Positions 2,653 to 20,448 of a stretch of 64,000 nucleotides of DNA are shown here, in pieces. The position numbers and the translations under genes are program-made. The stretch spans positions 682,001-746,000 of the forward strand of contig NZ_KV917372.1 in the NCBI RefSeq assembly GCF_002019635.1. The letters are read 5' to 3'. A model generated the notes under the pieces. That model was not told where the DNA came from and did not search any database. It saw nothing but the letters and a program-made list of their open reading frames with translations. Positions within the stretch are counted from its first letter, which is position 1, and each line of letters starts with the position of its first letter. Source of the DNA: Metabacillus halosaccharovorans (lineage in GTDB: Bacteria > Bacillota > Bacilli > Bacillales > Bacillaceae).

Positions 2653-2674
2653 CTGAGTCATTTTTAAACATTAT

Positions 2675-2722
2675 AAATAACAAATCCAGTGTGAAACCAT
2701 GTCGACACTGGTTTTGTTATTT
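2675..2722. terminator. Convergent bidirectional terminator
   Basis: 18-bp stem (2675-2692 with 2705-2722, one mismatch) lies between wecB and the convergent acyltransferase gene, with A and T runs on the outer sides so that it can work in both directions. Confidence 0.75.
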
Positions 2723-2730
2723 ACAATTTA

Positions 2731-3408: not shown

Positions 3409-3593
3409 AATTGTCCTCCTATTCTTTTAAAGAAAGGCTGCTATAACTTTCAAAACAGTAAAATCAGTCTAGAAATTCAGAATCTATGTAAGACAATCGC
3501 CAATTTTTCATATGAATCCAACAAAGACAATAACTCTATTTATCCGTACAGCATAAGCTAAGAAGTAGAATTAAGGCAACTAGGAGGTATTAT

Positions 3594-4529: not shown

Positions 4530-4695
4530 CTTCTATTTTGATATTGTATGTTCAATTTTTCAAAAAAGTAGTTAAATAATTCCTTGTAAATAAAACTTTA
4601 GACTATATCAATGATTTATTTGTTTAAGGATAAAAGAATATTTTTTAATTGTTCAAAATACTCATTTATTAAACTGAGTTAGAAGGGAGATTATC

Positions 4696-5720: not shown

Positions 5721-6797
5721 TTAATCTTTATCTTCAATATTATTCATTAAAAAATTTGCATATTTTATGGGAGTAAAATAAGTAGCTTTCCATTCATTAA
5801 ATAATGCTGCTTCTTTGAATGTTATCCTCAAATCACGAAAATTGCATTCGATAAACATTGGAATACCTTTTTCTGTGATTCCTATATCCAGTCCTAAATC
5901 AGCAAGGTTCGTTAATTTCCCGTCAAGATGTTGTGCAATCTTTAATGACAATGACCTAATCTTAGCTAGTATATCGTCTGTATTCATTTTTAGATGATTT
6001 AACACAATTTTAGGGTCATAACATCTCCCTCCTGAAGCTACATTCGTTGTATATTTACCTAAATTTGCAACCTTGCATACTATGCCAGTCACTTGCCAAT
6101 TTCCGAGTTCATTTTTTTGGACAGAAACTCTAAAATCAAATGGTTTATCTTCATATGTTCCTAATTGAATTCTTTGTTGAATAATGTTGGTTGGATTAAG
6201 GATAATTTCGTTTACCTCACTAGCCCAGTTGCCATTTAGTGGAATATTGTATTTTTTTTTGCCATTAATTACTAAACCAACATTGTCACTATGCCTCTTT
6301 ATTCGTGTAATCCCTTTACCAAGGGTTCCGTAATTTGGTTTTATGATAAGATCTTCGTACAAATTGATCATCTGTAAGAAGTTATTTTTGTTTGTCTTAC
6401 GGGTTTCAGGTAAAAAACGCTTAAACTTATCCTCCGCTTCTAAGTATTGATGAATTGTAAGCTTAGAAATCTTTGTAAATGCATTATAGAATTTGATACC
6501 TTCTTTTTGAAGTGAAACTATTTTCTCTTGCTCTCTTCTATGGTACAACAAAACCCGGTTATGGATGATCATAGGTGTCTTTATTATTTTGATTGTGTAG
6601 TGATTATGTTCATCTTTAACCAATGACTTTACATGTTTTTTTCCTTTGGCAAGATCAGCTAATCGAAAAAAACATGGTGTCAATCCATATTGAGCACAAG
6701 CCTCTTCATAAAAAGGTATACATTCATTGGTCTCAATTCCCCTTTGAATTTTATTATATAGATAGGCACTTACTAAAATTCCAATATTCTTCTTCAT
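5721..6797 (-). CDS. YheC/YheD family ATP-grasp protein (paralogue 1)
   Basis: 358 residues, close to the length of B. subtilis YheC. N-terminal IGILVSAYLYNKI; the Gly-rich nucleotide loop PNYGTLGKGI near residue 147; QQRIQLGTYEDKPFDFRV in the middle; and the Mg-binding end LADLGLDIGI...FIECN near residues 305-325. It is of the same subtype as the genes at 12386 and 19360 (shared FIECN ending and QERIPLATF-like segment). ATG follows GGGTGAT. The family is known as endospore-coat-associated; by fold it should join a carboxylate to an amine with ATP. The real substrate is not established. Confidence 0.88.
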   Translation of the reverse strand: MKKNIGILVSAYLYNKIQRGIETNECIPFYEEACAQYGLTPCFFRLADLAKGKKHVKSLVKDEHNHYTIKIIKTPMIIHNRVLLYHRREQEKIVSLQKEGIKFYNAFTKISKLTIHQYLEAEDKFKRFLPETRKTNKNNFLQMINLYEDLIIKPNYGTLGKGITRIKRHSDNVGLVINGKKKYNIPLNGNWASEVNEIILNPTNIIQQRIQLGTYEDKPFDFRVSVQKNELGNWQVTGIVCKVANLGKYTTNVASGGRCYDPKIVLNHLKMNTDDILAKIRSLSLKIAQHLDGKLTNLADLGLDIGITEKGIPMFIECNFRDLRITFKEAALFNEWKATYFTPIKYANFLMNNIEDKD

Positions 6798-6869
6798 ATG
6801 TTATCACCCATAATAAATTTTTACCTTACTCTCAATTAGCCTTATAGAATTATGTTAGGAGTAATGAAT

Positions 6870-7622
6870 ATGGAAAAGTATAAGATCAATAACAAATTTC
6901 ATAAAAATGAGCTCATCATGAGAGATCCCTACTTAAAGCAGCATATTCCTGAAACGAATATTTTAACAAAGAATCATCTTACAAATTTATTAATTAAACA
7001 CAAAAAAGTTGTAGTAAAACCAAGTAGAGGTTCTCTTGGAAATGGTGTCATTATGATAAATGAAATCAACCCACAAGAATATGAACTTTTATATCCCGGA
7101 AAAAAAACAAAATATATAAAAGGGATTGAGGTACTCTATACGTACCTAAAAAAATTAGAACATCCTTCCATTCCATGTATTGTTCAATATTATATACCTT
7201 TGGCAAAGATTTTTGGGTCACCATTTGATCTCAGGTATATATCACAGCTATATAAGAATGAATGGCTCATAACAGGAATGTATGGCCGGATTGCAAAAAA
7301 GGGATATGCAGTAACAAATTTTGAACACGGATCTAAAATAATAACTGTAGACGAAGCTCTAAAAATTTCAAATATCAAAAATATTGAACTAATTGAATTT
7401 CAATTAAATTTAGAAAAAATTGTTTTATCTATTTCAAGATGTCTACATGTATATTTTACAAAGCAAACAATTTGGGGCTTAGATATAGGGATTGATGAAA
7501 AAGGTGAAATTTATGTAATTGAAGTAAATGCAGCCCCTCAAATAAAAGGTTTCCTTGAATTAGAATCACTAAAGCCCATGTATAGAAATATACATCGCAT
7601 TCAAAATGAAACAAAAAAATAA
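6870..7622 (+). CDS. Short YheC/YheD family ATP-grasp protein (paralogue 2)
   Basis: 250 residues, about 100 shorter than its neighbours because it has only the ATP-grasp part: KPSRGSLGNGVIM (nucleotide loop) near residue 50, FGSPFDLRYI in the middle and GLDIGIDEKGEIYVIEVN at the end. The complete catalytic core argues that it is a natural short form and not a fragment. I start it at the ATG at 6870, eight bases after AGGAG (6857-6861); upstream ATGs at 6852 and 6864 lie on or before that site. It is divergent from paralogue 1. Confidence 0.8.
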   Translation: MEKYKINNKFHKNELIMRDPYLKQHIPETNILTKNHLTNLLIKHKKVVVKPSRGSLGNGVIMINEINPQEYELLYPGKKTKYIKGIEVLYTYLKKLEHPSIPCIVQYYIPLAKIFGSPFDLRYISQLYKNEWLITGMYGRIAKKGYAVTNFEHGSKIITVDEALKISNIKNIELIEFQLNLEKIVLSISRCLHVYFTKQTIWGLDIGIDEKGEIYVIEVNAAPQIKGFLELESLKPMYRNIHRIQNETKK

Positions 7623-7715
7623 GCAATCAATGTTTTTACTAAGTACTAATGGTGAAATTCCTTATTTCCCCACTATCACTCAAAGAATTTTTAATGTTGT
7701 TGTTTTTAAAGTATT

Positions 7716-7742
7716 GGCCACTAAAGGGTGTTTAAAGTGGCC
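7716..7742. repeat. Small hairpin between convergent genes
   Basis: GGCCACT (7716-7722) pairs with AGTGGCC (7736-7742). There is only a poor T-tract on either side, so it is a weak terminator at best. A related GG-CCACC hairpin lies at about 8940-8970. Confidence 0.4.
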
Positions 7743-7769
7743 CCTTCTATTTAAGAGTGCAATGGTAAA

Positions 7770-8423
7770 TCAGCTATATTTTAATGGATTAAAAGTGGTT
7801 ATTTGATTTGGTAATTGCACTTTCGGATAATGATTTGTTATGAAATCAGATGGTGACATTGATGCTCTTTTCACTTGTTGCTTTATTTTTTTATTTCTTT
7901 TATTGTGATTCTGATTTTCCTTCGAACCTACCCTTTGAATTGTTTCATTAAAACCGTCTCCACTAAGAGATGATAACTGCTTTTTATTCTTAAACTCAAT
8001 TTTTCTTTTTCGATTTAATTTGCTGGGTATTTTAACTTCTTCATTTACTTTGATTTCACCTTCCGGTTTTTTTTCAAGGAGAGCTAATCGTTCCATTAAT
8101 TTATGAATATTTTGTGTATTCGCTTCACTCTTTTCTTTCCATACTTTGATTGCCTCTTCGAGTTCAAAGATTTTTGCCGTATAGCTTTCATCTTTTTCAT
8201 ATATTCCTTGTAGCCTTTCATAAATATCTGATATTTGCTGTCCACTAATCACATCATTTTGTACGTCCTGATGAACCTGAACATCCTGCAAATGTTTAAA
8301 CATATTATCAAAGTGACTTAATTTAATTTCTAATTCACTTACCAAGTTTTGTAAATTGGTTATATCTTGGCTATACTTTTGATCTTCATTAGGTTCCTTT
8401 TCGCTTCTTCCGAATCCAAACAC
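7770..8423 (-). CDS. Coiled-coil protein with basic tail, unknown function
   Basis: 217 residues. Residues 15-125 are heptad-like and rich in Leu, Ile, Glu and Lys (coiled coil); residues 130-185 are strongly basic (KLNRKRKIEFKNKK and HNKRNKKIKQQVKR); the last 35 residues are less charged (SPSDFITNHYPKVQLPN). No known domain is recognised. GTG start at 8423 with GGGAG eight bases upstream. A sigma-K-like promoter can be drawn upstream. The charged tail and coiled coil are common in coat morphogenetic proteins, and the setting among coat-related genes suggests the same, but that is inference. Confidence 0.65.
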   Translation of the reverse strand: MFGFGRSEKEPNEDQKYSQDITNLQNLVSELEIKLSHFDNMFKHLQDVQVHQDVQNDVISGQQISDIYERLQGIYEKDESYTAKIFELEEAIKVWKEKSEANTQNIHKLMERLALLEKKPEGEIKVNEEVKIPSKLNRKRKIEFKNKKQLSSLSGDGFNETIQRVGSKENQNHNKRNKKIKQQVKRASMSPSDFITNHYPKVQLPNQITTFNPLKYS

Positions 8424-8466
8424 CTATTTCACTCCCTTAAGTTCATATTGAAAAGTTCATCTTTTA

Positions 8467-8495
8467 AACTATATGAAGTTACTTAATAAAAAGTG
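8467..8495 (-). promoter_or_regulatory. Candidate sigma-K promoter for the coiled-coil gene
   Basis: On the minus strand CACT, 16 bases, then CATATAGTT resembles the mother-cell sigma-K pattern (AC at -35, CATAnnnTA at -10, one mismatch). It lies 44 bases upstream of the GTG start at 8423. Confidence 0.4.
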
Positions 8496-8624
8496 ATTAT
8501 TATGATGACATATGACTTCGTATCGTTATTATTAAATAATGTACATGGACTATCCTTTTAAACTATTACTTTTATCTATTTTTCAAAACCAATGACACTA
8601 ATACAAGCATAAATTCAAGTATTT

Positions 8625-8637
8625 CATATTGTATAAT
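8625..8637 (+). promoter_or_regulatory. Candidate -10 region of the 78-residue protein gene
   Basis: CATATTGTA (8625-8633) fits the sporulation -10 CATAnnnTA, but TATAAT (8632-8637) overlaps it and would fit sigma-A. No convincing -35 is found at the right distance for either, so the sigma factor cannot be decided. Confidence 0.3.
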
Positions 8638-8682
8638 AGGAAAAACATTTCCTAATATTGTATTGAAAGGAGATTTAAAACT

Positions 8683-8919
8683 ATGGGTGTTGGTGCTCTT
8701 TGTACAGTAACTGTAACTGGTACAGTTACTGGTACTCCTATTGGTCCTTTGGTTGTTCAGGTTCCGATGACAGATGATGGTTTGATAGATGTAACAATTC
8801 CATTAGGTGGTTTGCTTGGAGATCTTGTTCTAGTTAATATTCCTTGCCCAACGATTGACGACATTGAGATTGTTGTTGGAGCTGTCGTAAGTTTAACTAT
8901 TTCTGTTACAGAGGGTTAA
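8683..8919 (+). CDS. Thr/Val/Gly-rich 78-residue protein, candidate spore-surface component
   Basis: A low-complexity protein of alternating Thr, Val, Gly and Ile (TVTVTGTVTGTPIGPLVVQV), with two Cys (residues 7 and 55), five Asp between residues 30 and 61, and almost no Lys or Arg. The alternation predicts a beta-strand-rich, possibly fibrous or amyloid-like fold. There is no signal peptide or membrane segment. AAAGGAG precedes the ATG. I recognise no family. It sits alone between a coiled-coil gene and paralogue 3 of the ATP-grasp set, so it could be a coat/exosporium structural protein or a substrate of the neighbouring ligases; both are inference. Confidence 0.7.
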   Translation: MGVGALCTVTVTGTVTGTPIGPLVVQVPMTDDGLIDVTIPLGGLLGDLVLVNIPCPTIDDIEIVVGAVVSLTISVTEG

Positions 8920-8984
8920 ACTTGTTCTATTATTAAAGAATGGCCACCTCTATTTTTTAGGGGTGGTTACATTAGGTGATGAAA

Positions 8985-10040
8985 ATGAGTCTAGTAGTAA
9001 TTGGAATATGCATTCGTGACGATAAATTGATCGGGTTAACAACAGAAAGAATAAGAAAATACATTGAGTATTTTCCTTATGAATACGTAGATTTTATATG
9101 CTTTCACTGGGATAAAATAGACGTAGTTAATTATTCAGTAGCAGGAAAAAAATTTAATAGGAAATCTCTAGAATGGGACGATGGTATATATCCTCTACCA
9201 CATGTCGCCTTTATACAAGGCTTTTTAAATAAAAATATTATAAATAAATTAAAAGATATATTCGGAGTAAATCTCTTTAATAATTTTTTATTTGATAAGT
9301 GGGAAGGGTGGGAATTTCTCTCAGCTCACAAAATAATTAAACAACATCTACCAATAACTCACAAAATTCAACTTGAGAGATTAGCTTTACAATTAAATCT
9401 ATTCAAAGACTTTTTAATAAAGCCAAGTATCGGCAGTAGTAGTGGTGGGATAATCCGAGTACAGTCTCGAAATGACGGTACCTTTGATGTTTTTCACTCA
9501 ATTAAGAATGAATGTGTATTGATAAAATTCGATACAATAAAAGAATTGATGAATTGGATTGAACCAAAGGTTAAGAATGGACAATATATTCTTCAACAAG
9601 GAATAGAAACCATAAGGTATAAAGATAATGCAACTGATATTCGATTAAACATGAACAAAAATTCTAACGGTGTTTGGGAAAAGTCCATTGTTTTTTTCCG
9701 GATTTCCTCTAATAACAACATTGTTGTTCCAAAGAAAGTATCTCGTATTTATACATTTGACCAATTGCGTAGTTCTTCCTCGTTCCTCCCAGAAGTTGAC
9801 GTAAGAAAATTAGAATCCCAAACTGATTCCATTGGAAATAAAATCTGTCAGGCATTTGATCAAGCTGGATATCATATGGCAGATTTAGGGATTGATTTAG
9901 GGTTAGATATGAAAGGTAAATTATGGATATTTGAAGTTAATCATATTCCTTATCCGGCTTTGGGATCAATTCATGATCCTTCTGTATATAAACCTCTCGA
10001 ATATGCTCTATTCTTAGCAAAAAATAAAAGTAAATATTAG
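8985..10040 (+). CDS. YheC/YheD family ATP-grasp protein (paralogue 3)
   Basis: 351 residues. The N-terminus LVVIGICIRDDKL resembles that of the gene at 16930-17943. The nucleotide loop is KPSIGSSSGGI (about residue 147), and the metal-binding end is MADLGIDLGLDMKG...FEVN near residues 305-325. Start choice: GTG 8976, ATG 8979 and ATG 8985 are all in frame; AGGTG (8974-8978) is six bases before 8985, so that ATG is preferred. A 12-bp imperfect hairpin (about 8940-8970) lies between this gene and the 78-residue protein and could separate their transcripts. Confidence 0.85.
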   Translation: MSLVVIGICIRDDKLIGLTTERIRKYIEYFPYEYVDFICFHWDKIDVVNYSVAGKKFNRKSLEWDDGIYPLPHVAFIQGFLNKNIINKLKDIFGVNLFNNFLFDKWEGWEFLSAHKIIKQHLPITHKIQLERLALQLNLFKDFLIKPSIGSSSGGIIRVQSRNDGTFDVFHSIKNECVLIKFDTIKELMNWIEPKVKNGQYILQQGIETIRYKDNATDIRLNMNKNSNGVWEKSIVFFRISSNNNIVVPKKVSRIYTFDQLRSSSSFLPEVDVRKLESQTDSIGNKICQAFDQAGYHMADLGIDLGLDMKGKLWIFEVNHIPYPALGSIHDPSVYKPLEYALFLAKNKSKY

Positions 10041-10042
10041 TT

Positions 10043-10086
10043 GGTATCCTTATATTCATATAAAAAGGATACCTTTTTATTTTTTT
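10043..10086 (+). terminator. Intrinsic terminator of paralogue 3
   Basis: GGTATCCTT (10043-10051) pairs with AAGGATACC (10065-10073) and is followed by a long T-rich tract. Confidence 0.85.
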
Positions 10087-10091
10087 AATCC

Positions 10092-10109
10092 TGACAGACA
10101 TGTTTGTCA
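10092..10109. promoter_or_regulatory. 18-bp palindrome, possible operator
   Basis: TGACAGACATGTTTGTCA is a palindrome with a single mismatched pair, about 185 bases upstream of the UPF0316 gene. No T-tract follows its weak stem. It may be a repressor site; no regulator can be named. Confidence 0.35.
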
Positions 10110-10295
10110 ATACTTTTTTTGAGGAATATTAAATTGCTATTAATCCATTTCTACATAAATAGTAATTTACTATTTACATCATATTTCCTATTATTTACTA
10201 AAATATGTATAAAAAAATTTAATTAAAAATCATTTTTTATTTTTTAAAATATGTTATGCTTTCGATATATTGATATAAAGGAGATAAACGATCTA

Positions 10296-10859
10296 ATGCT
10301 AGGAGCCTTACTTATTTTTGTACTCCAACTCATATATGTTCCAGTCCTAACGATTAGGACCATTCTTCTTGTAAAAAATCAGACTAAAACTGCAGCAGGT
10401 GTTGGACTGTTAGAAGGAATTATTTATATTGTTAGTCTAATTTTTGTTTTTCAAGATTTATCTAATATATATAATATCATTGCATATGTTGTCGGCTTCA
10501 GTGTTGGCCTCTTGCTTGGTGGTGCATTAGAGCGGAAATTGGCAATTGGATATATTACCTATCAAGCAAATATTCTTGATAAAAATATGGATTTAGTGAA
10601 TTCTTTAAGAACCGCTGGCTTTGGTGTTACTGTTTTTGAAGGAGAAGGAATTAATACCGCTAGATTTCGATTAGACATTGTTGCAAAACGTTCTAGAGAA
10701 AAAGAATTATTACTAATAATAGATCAATTTGAGCCAAAAGCATTTTTAATGTCTTATGAAATTCGTTCATTTAGAGGTGGCTATTTAACTAAATCCATGA
10801 AAAAAAGAGCTATCTCCTTCTTTAAAAAGAAAAAAGCTATTGAAGAAACAAATAAATAA
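10296..10859 (+). CDS. UPF0316 / DUF2179 membrane protein (YebE-like)
   Basis: 187 residues from the ATG at 10296. Three hydrophobic segments (about residues 1-20, 35-52 and 57-75) are followed by a soluble C-terminal DUF2179 domain (residues 90-175, [11 protein letters not shown] near the start). This order and length match the UPF0316 family, to which B. subtilis YebE belongs as I recall. The frame is open to 10251, but the family begins at the hydrophobic [10 protein letters not shown], so the later ATG is used; AAAGGAG is rather far (about 12 bases). Its role is not known; related DUF2179 proteins bind small ligands. It is unrelated to the surrounding ligase genes. Confidence 0.85.
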
Positions 10860-10865
10860 TTGGTG

Positions 10866-10916
10866 ATTAGGCGAAATGAAATTGGTTTTTTCATACCAAA
10901 AGCTCTTTTCGCCTTT
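10866..10916. terminator. Convergent terminator
   Basis: AGGCGAAA pairs with TTTCGCCT around a second inner stem (TTGG/CCAA); it is flanked by T-rich sequence and lies between the convergent UPF0316 and ATP-grasp genes. Confidence 0.7.
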
Positions 10917-10930
10917 TCTTTTACCCAAAA

Positions 10931-12241
10931 TCATGAAAACCCCGCCAACGCCTTAGCATATTCTAATGGCGTCATCATCAATTTTTCATACACCCCTTTA
11001 GGCATATTTTTCTCCTTTATTTCTGCACCATACCCTCCTTGAAGCTCCAAGATCCAAATTTTTAACTCTTTATCGACAATTAAATCAAATGCTACATCAC
11101 CTAAATGGTGTCCACATTCTTCAATATATTCGGCTGTTTTTATGCAAGTTTTTATCATTTCGTTTTGTATAGAGAAAATTTGTTTGTTAGATAACCCGTA
11201 ATATCTTGCAAATGCATAATAACTTGGCAATACGTCTATTCTGTGATTGGCATTTGTTATAATGCTTCCCTTTTTTCCAATTCTCGCCATCATTCCAGGT
11301 GAACCCCATTGTTTTTCCTTACCCTTCTGTAAATATAAACGAAAATCAATTATTGATTCACCAACAGTAAAAGGGATGGCTTGTTGTATTAAATACTTTT
11401 GTTTCATCTTATAGGTTACATATTTCAATAGAATATGCTCCTGAAATATCATTTTAATATGACCATGTATATTCTGTAGCTTATATGCATCACCGCTTTT
11501 TTCAATTTTTATAATCCCCTTCCCTTGGTATGATTGATTTGGCTTTAAATAAACTGCACCAAACTCATTAATCATTTCCAAAAAAGAATGTTTGTTTACT
11601 AACTTTTTTGTCTTAGGAACATAGTTTGAAAGAGATGGATGCTCAGATAGTTTCTTATACTGATACCATTTGGAAAAATGATCACTATAAAAAACTTTTT
11701 GACCTATGATATTCGTAAAATAGTTATAACCTCTTCTGCTCATTGAACTTTTACTAATCATTACTGCATTTGGCAAAGGAAATTCCGCTGCAACCCAAGC
11801 TTGTTTTCGTGGATGAAAATAATACCCCTTTATCTCCTTTTTCACTGAATTCACATCATTTTCTGCAAAGACAAAAAACAAACCATTTTGTTTCCAAGAA
11901 TCTTTTACCCGATATCGCAGCTTTGATAATACTTTCTTTGTCAAATATTTCTTGTCCCTGCATCCCATAATGCCAATAACCGGTCCAACCACTAGTGTGT
12001 CATGATCGAACTTACCTTCATAGTGGAAAACAGACGGAATGACAAATTCATTTATTTTTGCAGGTATCTTAACCTCACTATTCTTAATTGAAGGATCTAT
12101 CTCAATACGACAGCTTTCTTTGCCAGTCCCGAAGTGAAGATTAATAGATGAGTACTTGTCTAGTTTAAGCGAATGAAAAAGTTTACTATTCACATAAATT
12201 GTTTTGTCGTTACTTTTATTTAGGATTATTTTACATTTCAT
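10931..12241 (-). CDS. YheC/YheD family ATP-grasp protein, long form (paralogue 4), with altered metal motif
   Basis: 436 residues from the ATG at 12241, which is six bases after GGAGGT; the frame is open further upstream but the ribosome site decides. An extra N-terminal domain of about 100 residues (beta-rich) precedes GPVIGIMGCRDKKY, then the nucleotide loop KPNQSYQGKGII. The C-terminal signature reads HLGDVAFDLIVD...WILELQGGYG: where all other copies have E-x-N, this one has ELQ, so the Asn that normally binds the second Mg is Gln. The protein may be less active or non-catalytic. The two-domain layout is shared with the gene at 15055 and with YheD-length proteins. Confidence 0.86.
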   Translation of the reverse strand: MKCKIILNKSNDKTIYVNSKLFHSLKLDKYSSINLHFGTGKESCRIEIDPSIKNSEVKIPAKINEFVIPSVFHYEGKFDHDTLVVGPVIGIMGCRDKKYLTKKVLSKLRYRVKDSWKQNGLFFVFAENDVNSVKKEIKGYYFHPRKQAWVAAEFPLPNAVMISKSSMSRRGYNYFTNIIGQKVFYSDHFSKWYQYKKLSEHPSLSNYVPKTKKLVNKHSFLEMINEFGAVYLKPNQSYQGKGIIKIEKSGDAYKLQNIHGHIKMIFQEHILLKYVTYKMKQKYLIQQAIPFTVGESIIDFRLYLQKGKEKQWGSPGMMARIGKKGSIITNANHRIDVLPSYYAFARYYGLSNKQIFSIQNEMIKTCIKTAEYIEECGHHLGDVAFDLIVDKELKIWILELQGGYGAEIKEKNMPKGVYEKLMMTPLEYAKALAGFS

Positions 12242-12385
12242 ATTCATACCTCCAAGTTTCTTACTAAATGTGATTAAGATGGATCGCCCTAATTGCATCT
12301 AACATAGTTACATATCCATACATCAAAATATTACGAGAATAAACTATTAGGAGTTTGAAAGTAATTAAAGGAGTGGATACAGTCT

Positions 12386-13486
12386 ATGGAAGGTGTAGGA
12401 ATCATAGTACCTCGAAAGATTTATAGACAAATTCCTAATCTAAACGGAAACCATAAAACGATGTTTATGCTTTTTGAACGTGCTGCTGCAAGGAATAATC
12501 TAATTCCTTGTTTTATTCGATTAAGACATCTTCACCCGGACAAAAAAAGTGTTGTTGCGTATGTTCGTACAACTGAAGGATATAAATTGATGAGGGTTCC
12601 TCGGCCGAAAGTTAATTATTCTAGAATACTTGATCGACATCCTGTTATAAGGAAAAGAATTTATGACCTTTACCGAGCGGGAGTAACAATTTTTAATGTA
12701 CCTAACTATGACATTGAAAAATTCAACATTCACCAACTGCTTAACCGTGATAAAAGCATACAAAAGCACTTACCACATACAGAACTCCTCACACAGCAAA
12801 ATCTCATGAAGATGCTGTCAATGTATAATAGTGTTATTCTAAAAAAGAATTATGGTGAACGTGGAATTGGTGCAATGAAAATTGACAAGGATATCAAGCA
12901 TTGTACACTTACTTATAAGCCAACAAACAGTACTGTTTTTGAAAAAGTGAAATTTACAACGGAGATACCAAGCGTTGTTCTCGAACATATTGAAAAGAGA
13001 GATTATGTGATTCAGGAAAGAATTCCATTGGCTACTTTCAAAGGAAACTTCTTCGATATGCGTGTTGCCTTACAAAAGGACGGTACCGGTATGTTTAAAG
13101 TTACTGGTATTATGTGTAAAGTGGCTAAAGACAAGAGCTTTTTAACAAATGGATCTCAAGGCGGAAAAACATGTAGACTCGAAGATATTTGTCCGAAATC
13201 ATTCCCTTCCATATCTTGTGATAGACTTAAGCGGGACATTTGCAACATGGCGTTATTGATTGCTAATAATTTAGACAAACATTTTCCGCATCTTGCAGAT
13301 TTGGGTTTTGATATTTGTGTCACAAATAAAGGAACTCCTTATTTTATTGAATGCAATTTTATATCAGATTATGTTGGGGGACTTATTCATCAACAAAAAC
13401 TTCTTCACGAAGAATGGGGTGCAGTTTTTTCTACTCCACTTGATTATGCACGTTATGTGTTAGATCAAAAAAATAAATCAATATAA
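12386..13486 (+). CDS. YheC/YheD family ATP-grasp protein (paralogue 5)
   Basis: 366 residues. N-terminal VGIIVPRKIYRQI; the nucleotide loop KKNYGERGIGAM near residue 153; VIQERIPLATFKGNFFDMRV; and HLADLGFDICVTNKG...FIECN at the end. Closest in the window to the genes at 5721 and 19360. AAAGGAG is rather far from the ATG. It is divergent from paralogue 4 and convergent with the Mur-ligase gene. An ATP-dependent ligase role in the spore coat is expected from the family, with no known substrate. Confidence 0.87.
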   Translation: MEGVGIIVPRKIYRQIPNLNGNHKTMFMLFERAAARNNLIPCFIRLRHLHPDKKSVVAYVRTTEGYKLMRVPRPKVNYSRILDRHPVIRKRIYDLYRAGVTIFNVPNYDIEKFNIHQLLNRDKSIQKHLPHTELLTQQNLMKMLSMYNSVILKKNYGERGIGAMKIDKDIKHCTLTYKPTNSTVFEKVKFTTEIPSVVLEHIEKRDYVIQERIPLATFKGNFFDMRVALQKDGTGMFKVTGIMCKVAKDKSFLTNGSQGGKTCRLEDICPKSFPSISCDRLKRDICNMALLIANNLDKHFPHLADLGFDICVTNKGTPYFIECNFISDYVGGLIHQQKLLHEEWGAVFSTPLDYARYVLDQKNKSI

Positions 13487-13497
13487 TGACGCTTTTG

Positions 13498-13532
13498 AAA
13501 ATAGAGGACTGATCATTCAGTCCTCTATTTTT
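13498..13532. terminator. Convergent bidirectional terminator
   Basis: AAATAGAGGACTG pairs with CAGTCCTCTATTT around ATCATT, with A and T runs outside, between paralogue 5 and the Mur-ligase gene; it touches the latter's stop codon. Confidence 0.85.
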
Positions 13533-14896
13533 TATCCCTTGAGCTTACTTAATAATCCTCTAAATGAGTTTCTCATCGATGTTTTGATTAAGATGATGGT
13601 ATTTTTGTCTGCATGGTTCTTTAAAATTCTCATTAGATGATCTTCATGTTTGACAGAGTATATACTGTTTGGGTCCATTCCCAATTGTCTTGCTTTCGTA
13701 CCAATTTCTTTTGCTTGATCGCCTATTGTAATAAGGTAGTCAATATTATGCTTTACTATAAGTGTTCCGATTTTTTGATGTTCTTCTTGGGAATGTGCTC
13801 CCAACTCTTCTATATCACCTAAAACTGCAATCGATTTTTTTTCTTTCGATACTTGCTCCAACACTTCCAGTGCTGCTTCGATTGACGTTGGATTTGTATT
13901 CCACGTATCATCGATGATTGTACTGTTGTTAATACCAGGACTTAATTCTAAATGTCTTTGAACTGGTTTATACGTTTTTAACCGTTCAATCGCAGTATTG
14001 ACATCAATACCTAATAACTCAGCAGCTGCAATAGAGAAGACAGCATTATAGACATTATGTTTACCAAATCCAGGTACATATCCTACATATATTCGCCCAC
14101 GATTTCCGATCATATATTTCATCCCAGCTTGATCATATTTCATCTTAAGAATTTTGTAATCAGCAACATCTGATTCTCCAATGTAAATCAGCTTACCTTT
14201 AAATTTGTTCGTCCTTAGTTTTCTGGAATAGTGATTATCTGCATTTAAAATCATTGTTCCACCAGGATGAACAGCTTTCAGCATACTTTCTTTTTCTTTA
14301 AAATATTCGTGATGATTTTTAAATCCTTGTAAATGATCTGTACCTATGGTCGTAATCAACCCAATGGTTGGCTTAAAATAACTTGCTGTTTGCAAAATAT
14401 GACCTGGTGAATTCACACCCATTTCAATAATTGCCGCATCGGTTTTGTCATTGATTTCAAGTAAATAGTTTAGATTATGAGATAATCCGTTTTGACTTAA
14501 TACTGTTTTAACAATATTTCTTTCAGGTGACAAAATATGTGCAATCATTTCTTTCGTTGTTGTTTTTCCACATGTCCCAGTTACACCAATTACCGGAATT
14601 CGAAACATCTTGCGATAATAATGAATAAATTTATAGAATGCTACCCACACATTTTTAACATAGACAATCGTATAAGATGTTGGAAAAAATGCTTCAACCT
14701 TTTTTTGATCAGTCACAATGATACAGGAGGGTAAATTAGTTGGAACTTTAAGTTTTTCACGGTAAAACACTAACGTATCTTTTGTTATTTTATGATTATT
14801 TCGTGTAGCTACGTTTCCAATCTTTGCATCTGCATCTCCCCTTACTAAAACACCACCTATAAGAGGACCGACCTTTCTAAGCAGCAAGCTTTTCAT
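13532..14896 (-). CDS. Mur-ligase family protein, MurF-like
   Basis: 454 residues. The P-loop GVTGTCGKTTTKE (about residue 105), the Mur signature EMGVNSPGH, TIGTDHLQGF, the KEKESML segment and DDTWNTNPTSIEAAL (compare MurF DxYNANPxSM) show a complete ATP-dependent amide ligase of the UDP-MurNAc-tripeptide:D-Ala-D-Ala type. The essential murF normally sits beside ddl in bacilli, so this looks like a paralogue. The N-terminal domain is short. Start codon: ATG 14896 is preferred; an in-frame GTG at 14914 is possible, and neither has a good ribosome site. Mur ligase plus ATP-grasp is the domain pair found fused in cyanophycin synthetase, which makes its place inside the YheC/YheD cluster notable. 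Confidence 0.85.
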   Translation of the reverse strand: MKSLLLRKVGPLIGGVLVRGDADAKIGNVATRNNHKITKDTLVFYREKLKVPTNLPSCIIVTDQKKVEAFFPTSYTIVYVKNVWVAFYKFIHYYRKMFRIPVIGVTGTCGKTTTKEMIAHILSPERNIVKTVLSQNGLSHNLNYLLEINDKTDAAIIEMGVNSPGHILQTASYFKPTIGLITTIGTDHLQGFKNHHEYFKEKESMLKAVHPGGTMILNADNHYSRKLRTNKFKGKLIYIGESDVADYKILKMKYDQAGMKYMIGNRGRIYVGYVPGFGKHNVYNAVFSIAAAELLGIDVNTAIERLKTYKPVQRHLELSPGINNSTIIDDTWNTNPTSIEAALEVLEQVSKEKKSIAVLGDIEELGAHSQEEHQKIGTLIVKHNIDYLITIGDQAKEIGTKARQLGMDPNSIYSVKHEDHLMRILKNHADKNTIILIKTSMRNSFRGLLSKLKG

Positions 14897-15054
14897 AATA
14901 AACAACACACTCACAATGTTTTTTATTATTAGTGTATTAGCTCCCCCCTATAATTGTATCGGCATATATATCGATTTTTACCAATTCTTTATTTAAACAG
15001 ACACTTTAATAGTAAATACATATAGTAATACATAAACGAAAAGGAGATAAAAGT

Positions 15055-16389
15055 ATGATTCACATTCACTTAGATAAAAAACGTTCAATGTCTATCCATT
15101 TGCATTCATCCTTTAAAAAACACGTTCAAAGGTGGAAACAACTAAAGATTCTTTATGGAATAAAAGAAGTGTCTGTCACTCCCTTGTTCTCAGGTGCTGT
15201 TCCTGAGGATAAATGTTACTTAACGTTAGATGTTATCAGGATTCTGGATTTACCTGTTAGCACACCTTATGAAATCAAATTTGATAAGAATAAGATGATT
15301 ATCGGTCCCTATATAGGAATCCTTGCTGCCGTTACAAAGGAGAACTTACAGCAAAGCATTCCTTATCTATCAGTCTATGTAAAAAATTATGAGGAAATTG
15401 GGGGTACAATCATTGTCTTTTCCTTGGATGGGATCGACCATGAAAACGAAACAATCACCGGACTTATGTTTGATCCCAATAGTAATAATTGGATAGAAGG
15501 AATTTTCCCCTACCCACGCTCTGTTTTTTCATGTGTGGAGACCAGCTTAACAGAGAACTGGTCTACGTATTTATATACAATGGAACATCTTCAACAAAAA
15601 CTCGGTAAAAGAATTTTTAACTATCCTAATTTTGATAAATGGCAAATGTATCAACTTTTAAAAGGGAGATTACAAAAATACTTACCTAAAACAGTGATCT
15701 ACTATGAACCCGAAGTTGTATGGAAGATGTTAAAGGAATATCCTTCACTATATATAAAACCAATTAACGGGCGGTTAGGTAAATATGTCCTGAAAGTCAC
15801 GCGTATTTCTAGTGGAGTTATCGTAAAGTATGGTCGTCATTCAAAAAAAGTTAAACATTTCAAATCATGGAGTTTATTCAAATTTTATCTTCGAAGAATA
15901 TTAAAAGAGGAGACTTATCTCATTCAACAAGCCATTGATTTAGTTAAATGTGATGACCAAATCATTGATTTTCGAATTATTATGGTTAAAAATAACCAAG
16001 GGAAATGGGAAAATATCGGTGCATTTTCAAGATATGGAGGAAAAAACAGTATTGTAAGTAACATTACAGCCGGTGGAAAAGCAGAGATTGGCGGAACAAC
16101 TTTAAAAACAGTTTTTGAACTATCGATCAAGGAAATGATTGATTTAATAAACCATATTCATAATCTCATGATGGATGCCATTGCAATCCTTGAAGAGGAT
16201 GGTTATCATCTTGGAAACCTTGGATTTGATATTGGAATTGACCAAAGCGGTAAGATTTGGATTATTGAAATTAATAATCAAAATCCTGATCATTATATTG
16301 CGGTAAAAGCTAACAAACCAAACATCTTATTTCAAGCAAAATTAACAAATATTCTTTATGCAAAAACTCTTTCAATGAGCTTCGAATAA
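15055..16389 (+). CDS. YheC/YheD family ATP-grasp protein, long form (paralogue 6)
   Basis: 444 residues. An N-terminal beta-rich domain of about 85 residues precedes GPYIGILAAVTKENL (compare GPVIGIMG in paralogue 4). The nucleotide-loop region is KPINGRLGKYVLK (about residue 239); the metal-binding end is HLGNLGFDIGIDQSG...IIEIN. All expected acidic residues and the Asn are present, unlike paralogue 4. AAAGGAG lies eight bases before the ATG. It converges on the CotZ-like gene sixteen bases away. Confidence 0.87.
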   Translation: MIHIHLDKKRSMSIHLHSSFKKHVQRWKQLKILYGIKEVSVTPLFSGAVPEDKCYLTLDVIRILDLPVSTPYEIKFDKNKMIIGPYIGILAAVTKENLQQSIPYLSVYVKNYEEIGGTIIVFSLDGIDHENETITGLMFDPNSNNWIEGIFPYPRSVFSCVETSLTENWSTYLYTMEHLQQKLGKRIFNYPNFDKWQMYQLLKGRLQKYLPKTVIYYEPEVVWKMLKEYPSLYIKPINGRLGKYVLKVTRISSGVIVKYGRHSKKVKHFKSWSLFKFYLRRILKEETYLIQQAIDLVKCDDQIIDFRIIMVKNNQGKWENIGAFSRYGGKNSIVSNITAGGKAEIGGTTLKTVFELSIKEMIDLINHIHNLMMDAIAILEEDGYHLGNLGFDIGIDQSGKIWIIEINNQNPDHYIAVKANKPNILFQAKLTNILYAKTLSMSFE

Positions 16390-16404
16390 AGATTATGTCG
16401 CTTC

Positions 16405-16857
16405 TTACCATTTAGGTTCTATGACAACCTTTTTCATCAAATTTATATCAAGACACTGCACAGCACAAATGCAGGTTAAATCCACCTTCACACATATTTC
16501 TGTTCGTTCAAGCCTTTCCACATCGCAAATTTCTTCAGCAGGGTATCCAGTTAAAGAAAGTGGACGGAGCAGCGAAAGGATCCCAAACTTTTCTCTTGTA
16601 TCTACATGTTCGATTCTAAAAAAAGGTGTACAAAAATCATCATCTTTTCCATTATCATTAGCCTTCACTCCTGAAACCTGAAACAAACCGCTATCTGTGT
16701 ATAATAAAAACGGAATCGTATCTACCTTAATAAGTTTTGAAAGAAGGGTACTAAAACAACTTGTTGGACAACCGCCCAACGAATCTTGTTGACGTTTTAA
16801 TTCAAGAATTGCATGATATACTGATTTTGTTTTTTCATGTTTATTGTTGTCCTTCAT
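16405..16857 (-). CDS. CotY/CotZ family spore coat (or exosporium) protein
   Basis: 150 residues, eight Cys. GGCPTSCFSTLLSKL near residue 28, FFRIEHVDTREKFGILSLLRPL near residue 80 and the C-terminal RLERTEICVKVDLTCICAVQ match the CotZ/CotY/ExsY pattern of Cys-rich crust and exosporium basal-layer proteins, which self-assemble into disulfide-linked lattices on the spore. AGGAAGGGAG precedes the ATG. Its place inside the ATP-grasp island is the strongest local sign that the island acts on the spore surface. Confidence 0.9.
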   Translation of the reverse strand: MKDNNKHEKTKSVYHAILELKRQQDSLGGCPTSCFSTLLSKLIKVDTIPFLLYTDSGLFQVSGVKANDNGKDDDFCTPFFRIEHVDTREKFGILSLLRPLSLTGYPAEEICDVERLERTEICVKVDLTCICAVQCLDINLMKKVVIEPKW

Positions 16858-16929
16858 CGTCTCCCTTCCTTTCCTACGCCCTTTCTTTTATGTTATTACT
16901 TGGTATGGGCATTTGTGCAGAAAAGGTAT

Positions 16930-17943
16930 TTACTTGTTCGCCTTGGCTAAATAGACAGCATATTGAACTAGTTTTTTGGCAACATCCATTTCTCGATGCT
17001 TTGAACCGGGGCGCCAATTCACTTCATAAATCCATAGTTTTTGATTTTCATCAATACCGATATCAATTCCAAGTTCATCAAATTTATGATGATACAGACT
17101 TTCAAAATGCTGTGAAAAACAAATGGAAAAATGCTCTAATAATCTTTTCATATTATAATATTCATCACCAAATTCTTCGATTAAAAATGGTTGAAGTTCA
17201 CCTCTAAACCCACCGCTTGAAATATTGCTTATCATTTTTCTATTTGCACTAATTCTTGGATATATAAGAGTTGTTTCCCATTCACCTCTTCCATTTTTTT
17301 GAACATGCAGCCTAATATCATACACCAATCCTTCTTTTGTTGAGCTTTTAATAAAAGGTTGAATGATGTAGCGAGTTGTTAATAAATAATCAAGATAAAG
17401 GATAAGTTCATTCTTTTCAAGAGTTTCGTTATGATTTCCATTAAGCACAAGATATTGATTTGTGGTTATTTTATCTATAAAAATTACTCCCTTTCCCCCA
17501 CTACCTTTAATAGGCTTGATTACTAGTCTTATATGGTTCTCAAAATGATCAAAGATCTCTTCTCCCCTATTCAGAATAAAAAAAGGAATAACATAATGAG
17601 AAAATTGTTTTCCTTCTATAATTTTCTGATAAACCTTTAATTTATTTCCTACTGAATAACTTGTAAATAGACATCTATTTTTCAAATAACTCCATATTTG
17701 TTTTTGTTTATCATTCTTAGGAGATTTACTGTTTATAATAATATCCGGCAAGTCTCGTAGCTGTTGAATCCACTTTCCATTATCATATCTCCATCCATTA
17801 ATTTTATGGTCAACCATATCAACTGTTCCAAAAGAAAAATAAAAGAAATCAACACCTTCCATTTTAGAAACCGCCGCACACGCATAAGCCTTTTTTACAT
17901 ATACAGGATCTTTTCTTGAATGAAGCATTCCAATAACAGTCAT
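16930..17943 (-). CDS. YheC/YheD family ATP-grasp protein (paralogue 7)
   Basis: 337 residues. N-terminal MTVIGMLHSRKDPVY, the nucleotide loop KPIKGSGGKGVIF near residue 140, YIIQPFIKSSTKEGLVYDIR in the middle and ELGIDIGIDENQKLWIYEVN at the end. ATG follows AAAGGGTGATT. It begins eleven bases after the stop of the frameshifted ATP-grasp gene, so the two form one transcription unit. Same subtype as the gene at 8985. Confidence 0.87.
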   Translation of the reverse strand: MTVIGMLHSRKDPVYVKKAYACAAVSKMEGVDFFYFSFGTVDMVDHKINGWRYDNGKWIQQLRDLPDIIINSKSPKNDKQKQIWSYLKNRCLFTSYSVGNKLKVYQKIIEGKQFSHYVIPFFILNRGEEIFDHFENHIRLVIKPIKGSGGKGVIFIDKITTNQYLVLNGNHNETLEKNELILYLDYLLTTRYIIQPFIKSSTKEGLVYDIRLHVQKNGRGEWETTLIYPRISANRKMISNISSGGFRGELQPFLIEEFGDEYYNMKRLLEHFSICFSQHFESLYHHKFDELGIDIGIDENQKLWIYEVNWRPGSKHREMDVAKKLVQYAVYLAKANK

Positions 17944-17954
17944 TTAATCACCCT

Positions 17955-19177
17955 TTATAGTGGCTCAATAATAAATTTCATTTCCTTTAATGCTTGAAGA
18001 GCAAACTGTTTAGCTTCTTCTTGAGAATGTGCTGTTGCCAGAACATAGGCATATCGGTCACCCATCGATAATGGAGGTGTTAAGATACTCCCTTTTCTAG
18101 GTTTTACATAAACCTCTTTTACACCAACATGTTTTTTTGCACGGTTTTTACCGGTAACCTTTAGAAGAACACCTTTCGTTTCAACTGTTACATATCGAAC
18201 ATAGACATATTCAGTCCTAGTTTTTTCGATAATAGGCTCCTTACCCAAATGCAGTTTTACGATTTCTTTTACGTAATTGATTCCTGTACCGTGATAAATG
18301 ATTTTATTCATTGCTCCACCAGATATGCGCGGGTTTATTTCAATCAACTTCCATTCTTTGTTCACATAACGGAACTCTAAATGACAACTTCCATTTTCAA
18401 GTCCGATCTCTTTTATAATCGTATTTATCGCTATTTCTAAATCAGCATATTGATCCGAGCTTAAATTTGCAGGGAACTGGTAGCCTAAAACAATAAACCT
18501 TTTCTTTCTTAAAACGTCTTGTTCAAGGATGCATACAATTGTTAGTTTTCCTTTGCAAACAATAATTTCGGCCAAATATTGGGGACCGTCAATATATTCT
18601 TCTACTAAAATAGGATCCTTGTCTGACACTTTATTCAATTCTGTTAAACCTTTTTTAAATTCAAGAAGATTTGTAGCAAGAATGACATCTTTCGATCCGT
18701 TAGATTTAGGAGATTTAAGTACTAATGGTAAGTATTTTTCCTTCGATTGGGAAAATTCTCTGATAGATTGTTTTTTATCGTAAAAAAAAAATGTGGTGTG
18801 TAAGATAGAGATTTGAGTTTTTCTCTAAACAAAGCCTTATCCTCCATTATTACGATTGCTTCTTTTGTAATCCGCCCTACTTGTAAAGTTTCAGAAATAT
18901 CAACTGCGATTGAAACAAATGGATCGATTAAACTTAAGCATGCTTTTACATTTTTGCCTGCAGTCATAAGTTTTTGAATTTCTTCTATTAATAAATTCTT
19001 ATCTTCTAGACTCTTTATATATATTAACTGATGAACTTCAGGAAATTCCTTACGTTGGTTAAGAAATTTTAACCGATCTGTATATAATACCGTAAAATAT
19101 CCCATTTCTGATGCAGCCTTTAATGCTTCTCTACTCGTGCCTGACTTGTTACATCCAATGAAAACAATCGTGTCCAT
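17955..19177 (-). pseudogene. L-amino-acid-ligase-like ATP-grasp enzyme split by a homopolymer frameshift
   Basis: Two frames make one protein of about 407 residues. The first (ATG 19177) holds the N-terminal domain (TIVFIGCNKSGTSREA) up to SYTPHFFF; the frame then changes at ten consecutive T bases (18782-18791 on the plus strand as A) and runs into a stop near 18722. One more T restores YDKKQSIREF..., the ATP-grasp loop LVLKSPKSNGSKD, LVEEYIDGPQYLAEI and the metal-binding HLEFRY...IEINPRISGG. The IEINPR/GG ending is that of BacD-like dipeptide ligases and carnosine-synthase relatives. It may be a real mutation, a phase-variable tract or a sequencing error; outside the tract there is no decay. 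Confidence 0.8.
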
Positions 19178-19359
19178 TTTCTCATCTCCAATAAAAGTAC
19201 CTCTTCTTATAAGAACGAATACATTAGGTATAGGTAAACCAATAAGTAGAAGTGAATGGTTGAGCTATTTCACAAAACACCCATCCTGCATCCTTATAAC
19301 CACCTATATTCATCCTTTATGATATGGGTGTTAGTACTAATTTAGAATGGAGCAAGTTT

Positions 19360-20448
19360 ATGTATAGAAGAATGATAGGTATTTTTATTCCTAAGCACCA
19401 TTATGAATCAATGAAAAATGAATATTCCCTTCATCCATCCTATGCCCAATATGAATCTACTGCAGAATTTTATCAACTTTCCGTTTGTTTTCTTTGTTCA
19501 GATTGCAGATTATACTCCAATGATATCCATGCCTTACTAAGAGATACGGAAAGCAATAAGTTCAAGGAAAAGAGTATACCTATACCAAAAGTTGTTTATA
19601 ATCGAGCTCATTTAAATAACAAAAAAGTACGGCAAACACTATTTCATTTTATTCAATCAGGTTCAAAGGTATTTAACTATATATCAATAATGAATAGTAA
19701 ATATTTTGTTCACCAATTATTAGAAAAAGAAGAACATCTTATTCGTTACCTTCCAACTACTTTAAAAGGCAACGGCAAAAACTTAGAAAAAGCTTTACAG
19801 CATATGGAGAATTTTTTTGTAAAACCTTGTTACAGCAGTATCGGGAAAGGAATCATGAATATACAAAAAGAAGTGGACGGTGATTGGTATCTTTATAAAA
19901 AGCATACGACAAAAAAAAGCTGGGAAAAAAGTTTATTTAATTCGGTCGAGATAAATAGGGTAAAAAGACTGTTTAAACAACATCCTTTTATTATCCAAGA
20001 AAGAATACCTTTAGCGACTTTTCAAAACAGACCATTTGATTTAAGAGTTGTCGTTCAAAAAGATGGTATAGGTAAATGGGTCATCAGCGGAATTGTTGCA
20101 AAATTAGCACCAGAAGGTCATGTCATTACAAATGTGGCAAGAGGAGGAGAAATTGGATTACTTCAGGACTACTTTACACACAGAGAAATCTCTATTCAAG
20201 ATATCCAAAAAAATATCAACACACTTGGTGTTGATATAGCAAAAGCACTTGAAAAGAATTGGCCTCACATAGCAGATTTAGGATTAGACGTTGGTATTAC
20301 TGAAAATGGTACTCCATATTTCATTGAATGCAACTTAAGAGGTCAATATGGTGCATTTAGAAAAAAAAGGGATTACTTGCCATTTTGGGAGAAAATACAT
20401 GATACACCAATTGAATATGCGAATTATTTGATGAATCAGATTGATTGA
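19360..20448 (+). CDS. YheC/YheD family ATP-grasp protein (paralogue 8)
   Basis: 362 residues. N-terminal MIGIFIPKHHYESM, KPCYSSIGKGIMN as nucleotide loop, IIQERIPLATFQNRPFDLRV and HIADLGLDVGITENG...FIECNLRGQYG. The ATG at 19360 has TGGAG seven bases upstream; the in-frame ATG at 19324 has none and would add residues unlike the family. It ends six bases before the convergent PAP2 gene. Same subtype as paralogues 1 and 5. Confidence 0.87.
   Translation: MYRRMIGIFIPKHHYESMKNEYSLHPSYAQYESTAEFYQLSVCFLCSDCRLYSNDIHALLRDTESNKFKEKSIPIPKVVYNRAHLNNKKVRQTLFHFIQSGSKVFNYISIMNSKYFVHQLLEKEEHLIRYLPTTLKGNGKNLEKALQHMENFFVKPCYSSIGKGIMNIQKEVDGDWYLYKKHTTKKSWEKSLFNSVEINRVKRLFKQHPFIIQERIPLATFQNRPFDLRVVVQKDGIGKWVISGIVAKLAPEGHVITNVARGGEIGLLQDYFTHREISIQDIQKNINTLGVDIAKALEKNWPHIADLGLDVGITENGTPYFIECNLRGQYGAFRKKRDYLPFWEKIHDTPIEYANYLMNQID

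Follow-up and report, generated by a model that had tools for sequence, protein, structure and literature searches.

The proteins YheC and YheD of Bacillus subtilis belong to the ATP-grasp family (PF14398) with which this analysis is concerned. The accessible part of PMC517825 places yheC and yheD in the SigE regulon, raised by SpoIIID, and that of PMC7911427 describes YheD as a self-interacting protein of unknown function that forms a shell round the spore. In other described systems, an ATP-grasp enzyme is paired with a Mur ligase: the ddl-murF pair sets a dipeptide ligase of the ATP-grasp type beside a MurF-type ligase, and cyanophycin synthetase (CphA) carries an ATP-grasp domain and then a Mur ligase in one chain. 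RimK and the tubulin-tyrosine ligases are ATP-grasp enzymes that add amino acids at protein C-termini, and a 2009 survey of amidoligases is said to have predicted the modification of spore proteins by YheC/D. In C. perfringens, a role in spore assembly has been connected with CphA (cited in PMC5532821), and the archaeal pseudomurein genes combine Mur ligases and an ATP-grasp protein in one locus (PMC11915815, available part). Here, we analyzed a stretch of 64,000 nucleotides from Metabacillus halosaccharovorans (hereafter the window), in which eight YheC/D genes are interspersed with a MurF-like ligase, a gene for a CotZ-like coat protein and an amino-acid-ligase-like gene. We found that this linkage is conserved in relatives, that YheC/D and Mur ligase are fused in some of them, and that a C-terminal tail of the CotZ-like protein is associated with one YheC/D clade. 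Our reading, to which we give an even chance, is that the interval encodes an amide-ligation pathway that works without ribosomes, is linked to sporulation and serves the spore surface. We found no description of this gene set in the full-text literature searched, which mostly does not extend to subscription journals.

Gene content and conserved linkage of the interval

The interval spans positions 5721-20448 of the window. We refer to its YheC/D genes as Y1-Y8, to the MurF-like ligase as MurX and to the L-amino-acid-ligase-like ATP-grasp gene as LAL; G000 is the window's genome, other G numbers are relatives and L numbers are fetched loci. The genes are:

5721..6797, minus strand: Y1, YheC/D ATP-grasp, 358 aa (PF14398, 197.7 bits)
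6852..7622, plus strand: Y2, YheC/D ATP-grasp, core only, 256 aa (PF14398, 154.0 bits)
8976..10040, plus strand: Y3, YheC/D ATP-grasp, 354 aa (PF14398, 167 bits)
10931..12298, minus strand: Y4, long YheC/D ATP-grasp, 455 aa (PF14398, 186.3 bits)
12386..13486, plus strand: Y5, YheC/D ATP-grasp, 366 aa (PF14398, 189.1 bits)
13532..14914, minus strand: MurX, MurF-like Mur ligase, N domain without the GHxF loop (PF08245 Mur_ligase_M, PF02875 Mur_ligase_C)
15055..16389, plus strand: Y6, long YheC/D ATP-grasp, 444 aa, divergent from MurX (PF14398, 215.5 bits)
16405..16857, minus strand: CotZ-like coat protein, C-terminus -VVIEPKW (PF10612, 63.7 bits, cut-off 24)
16930..17943, minus strand: Y7, YheC/D ATP-grasp, 337 aa (PF14398, 184.6 bits)
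17955..18638, minus strand: LAL, C-terminal part (ATP-grasp_4 and LAL_C2)
18638..18791, minus strand: LAL, bridging stretch, open in the -1 frame, with a T10 tract at 18782-18791
18722..19177, minus strand: LAL, N-terminal part (ATPgrasp_N, E 1.1e-5, 26.4 bits, just under the cut-off of 27)
19324..20448, plus strand: Y8, YheC/D ATP-grasp, 374 aa (PF14398, 208.3 bits)

Two further genes lie among these:

7770..8423, minus strand: 217-aa protein without a Pfam match; among the compared loci, relatives only in the two nearest genomes
10251..10859, plus strand: DUF5698/DUF2179 protein; among the neighbour loci, present only in the nearest relative, and probably outside the module

A sequence-only reading of the window had counted eight YheC/D copies of at least three subtypes, together with a Mur ligase and a CotZ-like gene, in about 15 kb. 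The Mur_ligase and PF10612 matches confirm this content, as does a profile search with PF14398, in which all eight copies scored 153-217 bits against a curated cut-off of 26.8, and the subtypes are borne out by three length classes: 256 aa (Y2), 337-374 aa (Y1, Y3, Y5, Y7, and Y8), and 444-455 aa (Y4 and Y6). MurX of the window and MurX of M. niabensis share 98% identity, the host genome is Metabacillus-like, and GC content (30-34% across the cluster versus 30-38% across the window) reveals no sharp island edge.

To describe the linkage in relatives, we counted genes within 8 kb of MurX in 45 loci. This count left out second copies from the same genome (L046, L047, and L110) and the loci L118-L121, which lack MurX, and kept close relatives (G000/G005/G019, G001/G004, and the Pseudalkalibacillus loci). 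YheC/D lies within this distance in 37 of the 45 loci, LAL in 21, and one or the other in 41; by our own estimate, based on up to 18 copies per genome, chance placement would bring fewer than one in ten random loci this close to YheC/D. The YheC/D-Mur ligase-amino-acid ligase-CotZ linkage that the sequence-only reading had proposed to look for is conserved over genera and families. MurX occurs (E<=1e-60) in 11 of 60 relatives, the window's genome included. Among the other 59, genomes with MurX carry 6-18 YheC/D copies (n = 10) and those without it 0-8 (n = 49), a difference that holds overall and within the genus (Mann-Whitney, uncorrected for relatedness, p=5e-7 and p=4e-4). Several layouts recur: LAL-Y7-CotZ-MurX (Neobacillus terrae, L061; also G012), LAL-Y7-MurX (Rossellomorea), Y6/MurX/Y5 (Robertmurraya and Pseudalkalibacillus), and CotZ-[YheCD-Mur]-LAL-MurX-MurX (L102, L104, and L111). 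Four genomes (G177, G352, G402, and G420; loci L173, L176, L171, and L170) have CotZ-Y7-LAL and no MurX match among the four candidates scored per genome; their CotZ tail ends in -EPKK, and each has one PF14398 gene. This trio is a minimal core. In two Pseudalkalibacillus loci, a second, MurE-like Mur ligase stands beside the Y6-MurX-Y5 set (L055:13435-14949 and L056:12638-14152), and that of L055 carries an N-terminal Mur_ligase domain.

The window copies share their family with B. subtilis YheC/YheD, and PF14398 also matches in B. subtilis, our control genome. The same genome as the window has four further PF14398 genes clustered on contig C3 (C3:183.5-187.8 kb), making 12 in total. Its four clades turn up again in seven further genomes fetched for it, which is why we regard it as the canonical yheCD locus; these clades are shared across the order (FastTree of 131 YheC/D domains and IQ-TREE of 62). 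Unlike these, Y1-Y8 fall in other clades in both trees and are linked to MurX, LAL, and a CotZ-like gene. In other genera, orthologues of Y4, Y5, Y6, and Y7 stand next to MurX or close by, those of Y5 adjoining it. The eight copies are old, divergent paralogues. Recent tandem duplication was considered and rejected: Y1 is only 20-33% identical to the other seven, and the 131-row tree groups each window copy with genes of other genomes, leaving no sister copies within the window. In the thinner 62-row tree, which omits many of the genomes of the larger one, Y5 and Y1 share an open fork.

When the 12 YheC/D proteins of this genome were aligned with one fusion protein, a Lys, an Asp-x-Arg, and an Asp position were invariant in all 13, and a Glu and an Asn were each kept in 12, with Gln replacing the Asn in Y4. 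We take these positions to be the ATP-grasp catalytic residues, the Asn replaced in Y4 being a Mg-site residue. Against solved structures, the YheC/D profile best matched tubulin-tyrosine ligase (TTL) and tubulin polyglutamylases (E 5e-6, C-terminal stretch only), and Y2 gave a weak profile match to RimK; these weak matches (TTL/TTLL6 for the family and RimK for Y2) are the likeness to the enzymes that modify protein C-termini. Compared with Bacillus sp. J37, whose MurX is 93% identical, Y4-Y8 and MurX show dN/dS values of 0.15-0.28 and the CotZ-like gene one of 0.49; the compared cluster genes are under purifying selection.

The BacD-like ATP-grasp gene of the sequence-only reading is present, its ATP-grasp_4 and LAL_C2 domains placing it in the BacD/BL00235 group, but it is not one intact open reading frame (ORF): its two parts, 18722-19177 and 17955-18638 on the minus strand, are separate ORFs whose frames differ. 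LAL is intact in other relatives, and the intact orthologue of L061 gives structure matches to 3vot and BacD. The window, M. niabensis, and J37 share the T10 tract where the frame changes. Beyond the tract, purifying selection has conserved the -1 frame (33 codons, dN 0.013, dS 0.166), and frame 0 is broken early in J37. With dN/dS values of 0.41 and 0.15, both halves look selected, and the U run is a candidate site of slippage or of a -1 frameshift, which would yield the full enzyme; it is also possible that LAL is a freshly broken gene.

MurX and the fusions of YheC/D with Mur ligases

The nearest known family to MurX is MurF, from which MurX is evidently distinct. Its score against the murF profile TIGR01143 (266.4 bits) is under the cut-off of 288.6. 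The N domain of MurF carries a GHxF motif that binds the UDP-substrate. This motif is found in none of 57 MurX proteins from the loci and in none of the 120 database relatives listed, and is present in the genome's own MurF; 55 of the 57 have DDTW at the position where that MurF has NDAY. MurX has kept its catalytic residues: T112-K121 (except position 115), E164, H194, K208, N290, and D336 are invariant in 20 MurX proteins and comprise the P-loop, the carbamylated Lys, and nucleotide-site residues. The predicted structure of MurX has a pLDDT of 92 and a pTM of 0.91. The arrangement LAL-MurX repeats the logic of ddl-murF; it differs in that LAL is BacD-like and not Ddl, that MurX has no GHxF, and that the window's genome has a separate, adjacent ddl-murF pair of its own.

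In a tree of 71 Mur domains, which held three CphA sequences and one plain MurF and left out 14 near-identical or redundant rows, MurX formed a group of 46 rows (SH-aLRT 91) apart from the set containing MurF. The fused and short Mur domains formed a clade of their own (98) within that set, and the three CphA domains lay far off on a branch of 3.1, a length at which branches may join falsely. A further MurF-like group (L097-L101; neighbourhoods L128-L133) also lacks GHxF. No YheC/D, LAL, or CotZ match was found in its six loci L128-L133, and the linkage is therefore particular to MurX. Five of these six loci contain two MurF-like ligases about 5-9 kb apart.

Relatives carry YheC/D and Mur ligase in one polypeptide, in both domain orders. 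Type 1 (YheCD-Mur, 707-744 aa) occurs in six loci (L037, L102, L103, L104, L111, and L114), and in L108 its halves are two adjacent genes. A protein search with type 1 gave 375 clusters at E<=1e-20, and all 120 of those listed carry PF14398, PF08245, and PF02875 with YheCD first; matches are named from Neobacillus, Peribacillus, Psychrobacillus, Sporosarcina, Lysinibacillus, and others. Type 2 (Mur-YheCD, 802-810 aa) was found in L118 and L119 and, with domain order read by profile, in 56 of 93 database rows. Two trees make Y7 orthologous to the ATP-grasp half of type 1. LAL and MurX are fused in L057, and P0153 (552 aa), which combines LAL_C2 with Mur ligase domains, is another LAL-Mur fusion form. 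A fusion of a COOH-NH2 ligase with YheCD adjoins MurX and phosphonate genes in L041 and L105, and L042 has the same first two genes (COOH-NH2-ligase-YheCD and MurX), by map only. The run of five genes in L041:6635-15190 and L105:5418-14060 is common to two families (COOH-NH2 ligase-YheCD, MurX, PEP mutase, TPP decarboxylase, and a nucleotidyltransferase-aminotransferase fusion) and suggests an amide of an aminophosphonate.

The sequence-only reading had pointed to CphA as the domain pair in fused form. Because true YheCD-Mur fusions exist, the comparison is apt; kinship of the Mur part was tried and rejected, the CphA Mur domains lying far off in the tree, with the caution about long branches given above. 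MurX scores 72 bits against the CphA profile TIGR02068 (cut-off 850), and no CphA match was found at E<=1e-120 in the window's genome; CphA is present in 41 of 250 class genomes. A model of the type 1 fusion (pLDDT 84, pTM 0.55) aligned with CphA1 (7lgj), the domains following in matching order, across 772 columns (Foldseek E 4e-21). Because the rmsd is 24 and the TM 0.37, domain placement in the model differs or is unsure. CphA differs further in that the window has separate genes, in that the ATP-grasp part is of the YheCD and not the CphA type, and in that the relatives' fusions occur in both domain orders. Since the tree places the Mur domains nearer to MurF than to CphA, the likeness is most likely convergent. 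The archaeal pseudomurein genes belong to other families by the classes of PMC11915815, which names CphA as the fused Mur member; YheCD-Mur fusions are not mentioned in its accessible part.

The CotZ-like tail and the probable link to sporulation

Twelve linked CotZ-like proteins are 27-87% identical to the window's, itself included among the nine that end in EPKW; the other three end in EPR, NPK, and HPKC. The tail in its strict form (EPK followed by 0-2 residues) is found in 16 of 64 distinct CotZ-like proteins fetched, proteins sharing their last 60 residues being counted once, and those CotZ/CotY proteins of the same genomes that were read and are not linked lack it. To relate the tail to gene context, we turned to a sample of 398 genomes of the class, where CotZ matched at E<=1e-12 in 31 and the best locus was read for 30 (G360 gave no locus). 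All 11 strict-tail loci have YheC/D within 1.5 kb, as do two of three loci with variant tails and none of 16 with other tails (Fisher p=8e-8 for the strict class and 1e-7 with variants). Each of the ten strict-tail loci placed in the tree has a neighbour of clade Y7 (IQ-TREE, 62 rows; 21 rows in the clade, SH-aLRT 100), which also holds the type 1 fusions placed there. This apparent pairing of the CotZ tail with Y7 is the most specific new lead of the analysis.

In the same class sample, MurX (four candidates scored per genome) reached at least 494 bits in 25 of 398 genomes, the window's own included, the next match being at 388 bits; neighbourhoods were fetched for 16 of the other 24. SpoIVA is present in all 25 MurX genomes, compared with 266 of 398 overall (hypergeometric p=3e-5). 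The YheC/D search scored up to six copies per genome, and higher copy numbers were not read from it. We also searched the fetched loci, with redundant ones left out, for promoter-like sites. Pooled over loci, and with C3-type and CphA loci also left out, sigma-K-like -10 sites precede 22 of 101 cluster-type genes and 27 of 393 others (p=4e-5), and the two-part motif precedes 18 of 101 and 26 of 393, respectively; three permuted motifs showed little or no excess. By family, the -10 site was found for 11 of 55 YheC/D, 6 of 25 MurX, and 3 of 4 CotZ genes. The spore association drawn in the sequence-only reading is thus strengthened by the CotZ linkage and tail, the co-occurrence with SpoIVA, and the pooled sigma-K-like sites.

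Proposed pathway and alternative explanations

What follows on when the pathway acts, on its chemistry and substrates, and on what the tail does is inferred from these observations. LAL, a BacD-type ATP-grasp enzyme, would make a short peptide in the mother cell. Y7 and the Mur ligase, which are one polypeptide or near neighbours in relatives, would join amino acids or the LAL peptide to an acceptor, and Y1-Y6 and Y8 would extend or vary the chain. The acceptor or docking site would most likely be the C-terminal tail of the cluster's CotZ-like protein (-VVIEPKW), much as protein C-termini are the targets of RimK and the tubulin-tyrosine ligases. A wider form of this proposal, which we put forward tentatively and with some doubt, is that many Bacillaceae and kin assemble part of the spore surface in this way, and that the CotZ -EPKW/-EPKK end is a primer on which Y7 starts a chain that MurF-derived ligases, fused to YheC/D in both orders, lengthen; that the system arose independently of CphA; and that B. 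subtilis either has lost the system or did not have it in the first place.

A number of observations weigh against the amide-ligation pathway. Only 13 of 45 MurX loci have CotZ at a distance of up to 8 kb, four of the 45 have neither YheC/D nor LAL nearby, and MurX seems not to be obligatory because four genomes carry CotZ-Y7-LAL without a match to it. YheC/D also occurs in genomes without a SpoIVA match (e.g. G104 and G111). The sigma-K-like -10 site is found in only 2 of 17 LAL genes, other genes also exceed shuffles for such sites (30 of 431 versus 11.2 expected from shuffling), and the sites are significant for no single window gene, including Y6, which has one upstream. Sigma-E-like sites, which the control suggested by the sequence-only reading would call for, are not enriched (16 of 109 versus 48 of 431). 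Finally, the tail class was defined after the data were seen, and the genomes and loci are related, so that the p values overstate independence.

Among the alternatives, the one that survives best, though we consider it rather unlikely, is that the ligases amidate a glycan of the spore or cell surface, placing amino acids or peptides on uronic-acid carboxyls in the manner of a teichuronopeptide and not on protein. The DNA to the left of the cluster encodes a glucuronyl C5-epimerase, a UDP-sugar dehydrogenase, two DegT aminotransferases, and a glycosyltransferase, and the window holds a UDP-GlcNAc 2-epimerase and a further glycosyltransferase. Sugar genes also stand among the YheC/D genes of G001 (a UDP-sugar dehydrogenase, a nucleotidyltransferase, and glycosyltransferases, with family members in G003, G004, and G020), where an LPG_synthase_C (GNAT) protein adjoins Y6 (L023:10380-11357); members of its family stand in the same place in G003, G004, and G020. 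A glycan would, however, leave the association with the CotZ tail unexplained. The glycan cluster itself, at L022:11648-19535 to the left of the window, runs on into the window at 1576-5694. No TupA family member is among the Pfam matches of 20 window proteins, a scan not aimed at TupA. In L102, the one annotated flanking gene encodes an NlpC/P60 protein.

A diffusible peptide natural product with no relation to spores is an improbable output of the cluster. The BacD/BL00235 type of LAL and the phosphonate genes that follow MurX in L041 and L105 would suit such a product, but none of the 14 interval ORFs scanned matched an NRPS, exporter, or resistance family, and the CotZ and SpoIVA associations and the pooled sigma-K-like sites speak for the spore. 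Still more improbable is that MurX is a sporulation-specific MurF paralogue for peptidoglycan, in the company of YheC/D by accident. MurF is its nearest family, SpoIVA accompanies it in 25 of 25 genomes, and the absence of GHxF from the further MurF-like group weakens the argument from that motif; against this stand the genome's own ddl-murF pair, the missing GHxF, and the sub-cut-off murF score, and the linkage and fusions argue against coincidence. That YheC/D are mainly structural shell proteins whose expansion reflects coat variation without a shared pathway, as the self-interaction and shell of B. subtilis YheD might suggest (PMC7911427, accessible part), is the least probable of all, given the kept ATP-grasp catalytic residues, the Mur ligase fusion, and the LAL linkage.

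Under the amide-ligation pathway, YheC/YheD, spore proteins of unknown function, gain a set of partners, a probable reaction class, and a candidate substrate in the CotZ tail. Many proteins annotated as MurF are probably something else. If the proposal is true, the kind of ATP-grasp/Mur fusion that makes cyanophycin would have had more than one origin, and the spore surface would carry non-ribosomal amide chemistry.

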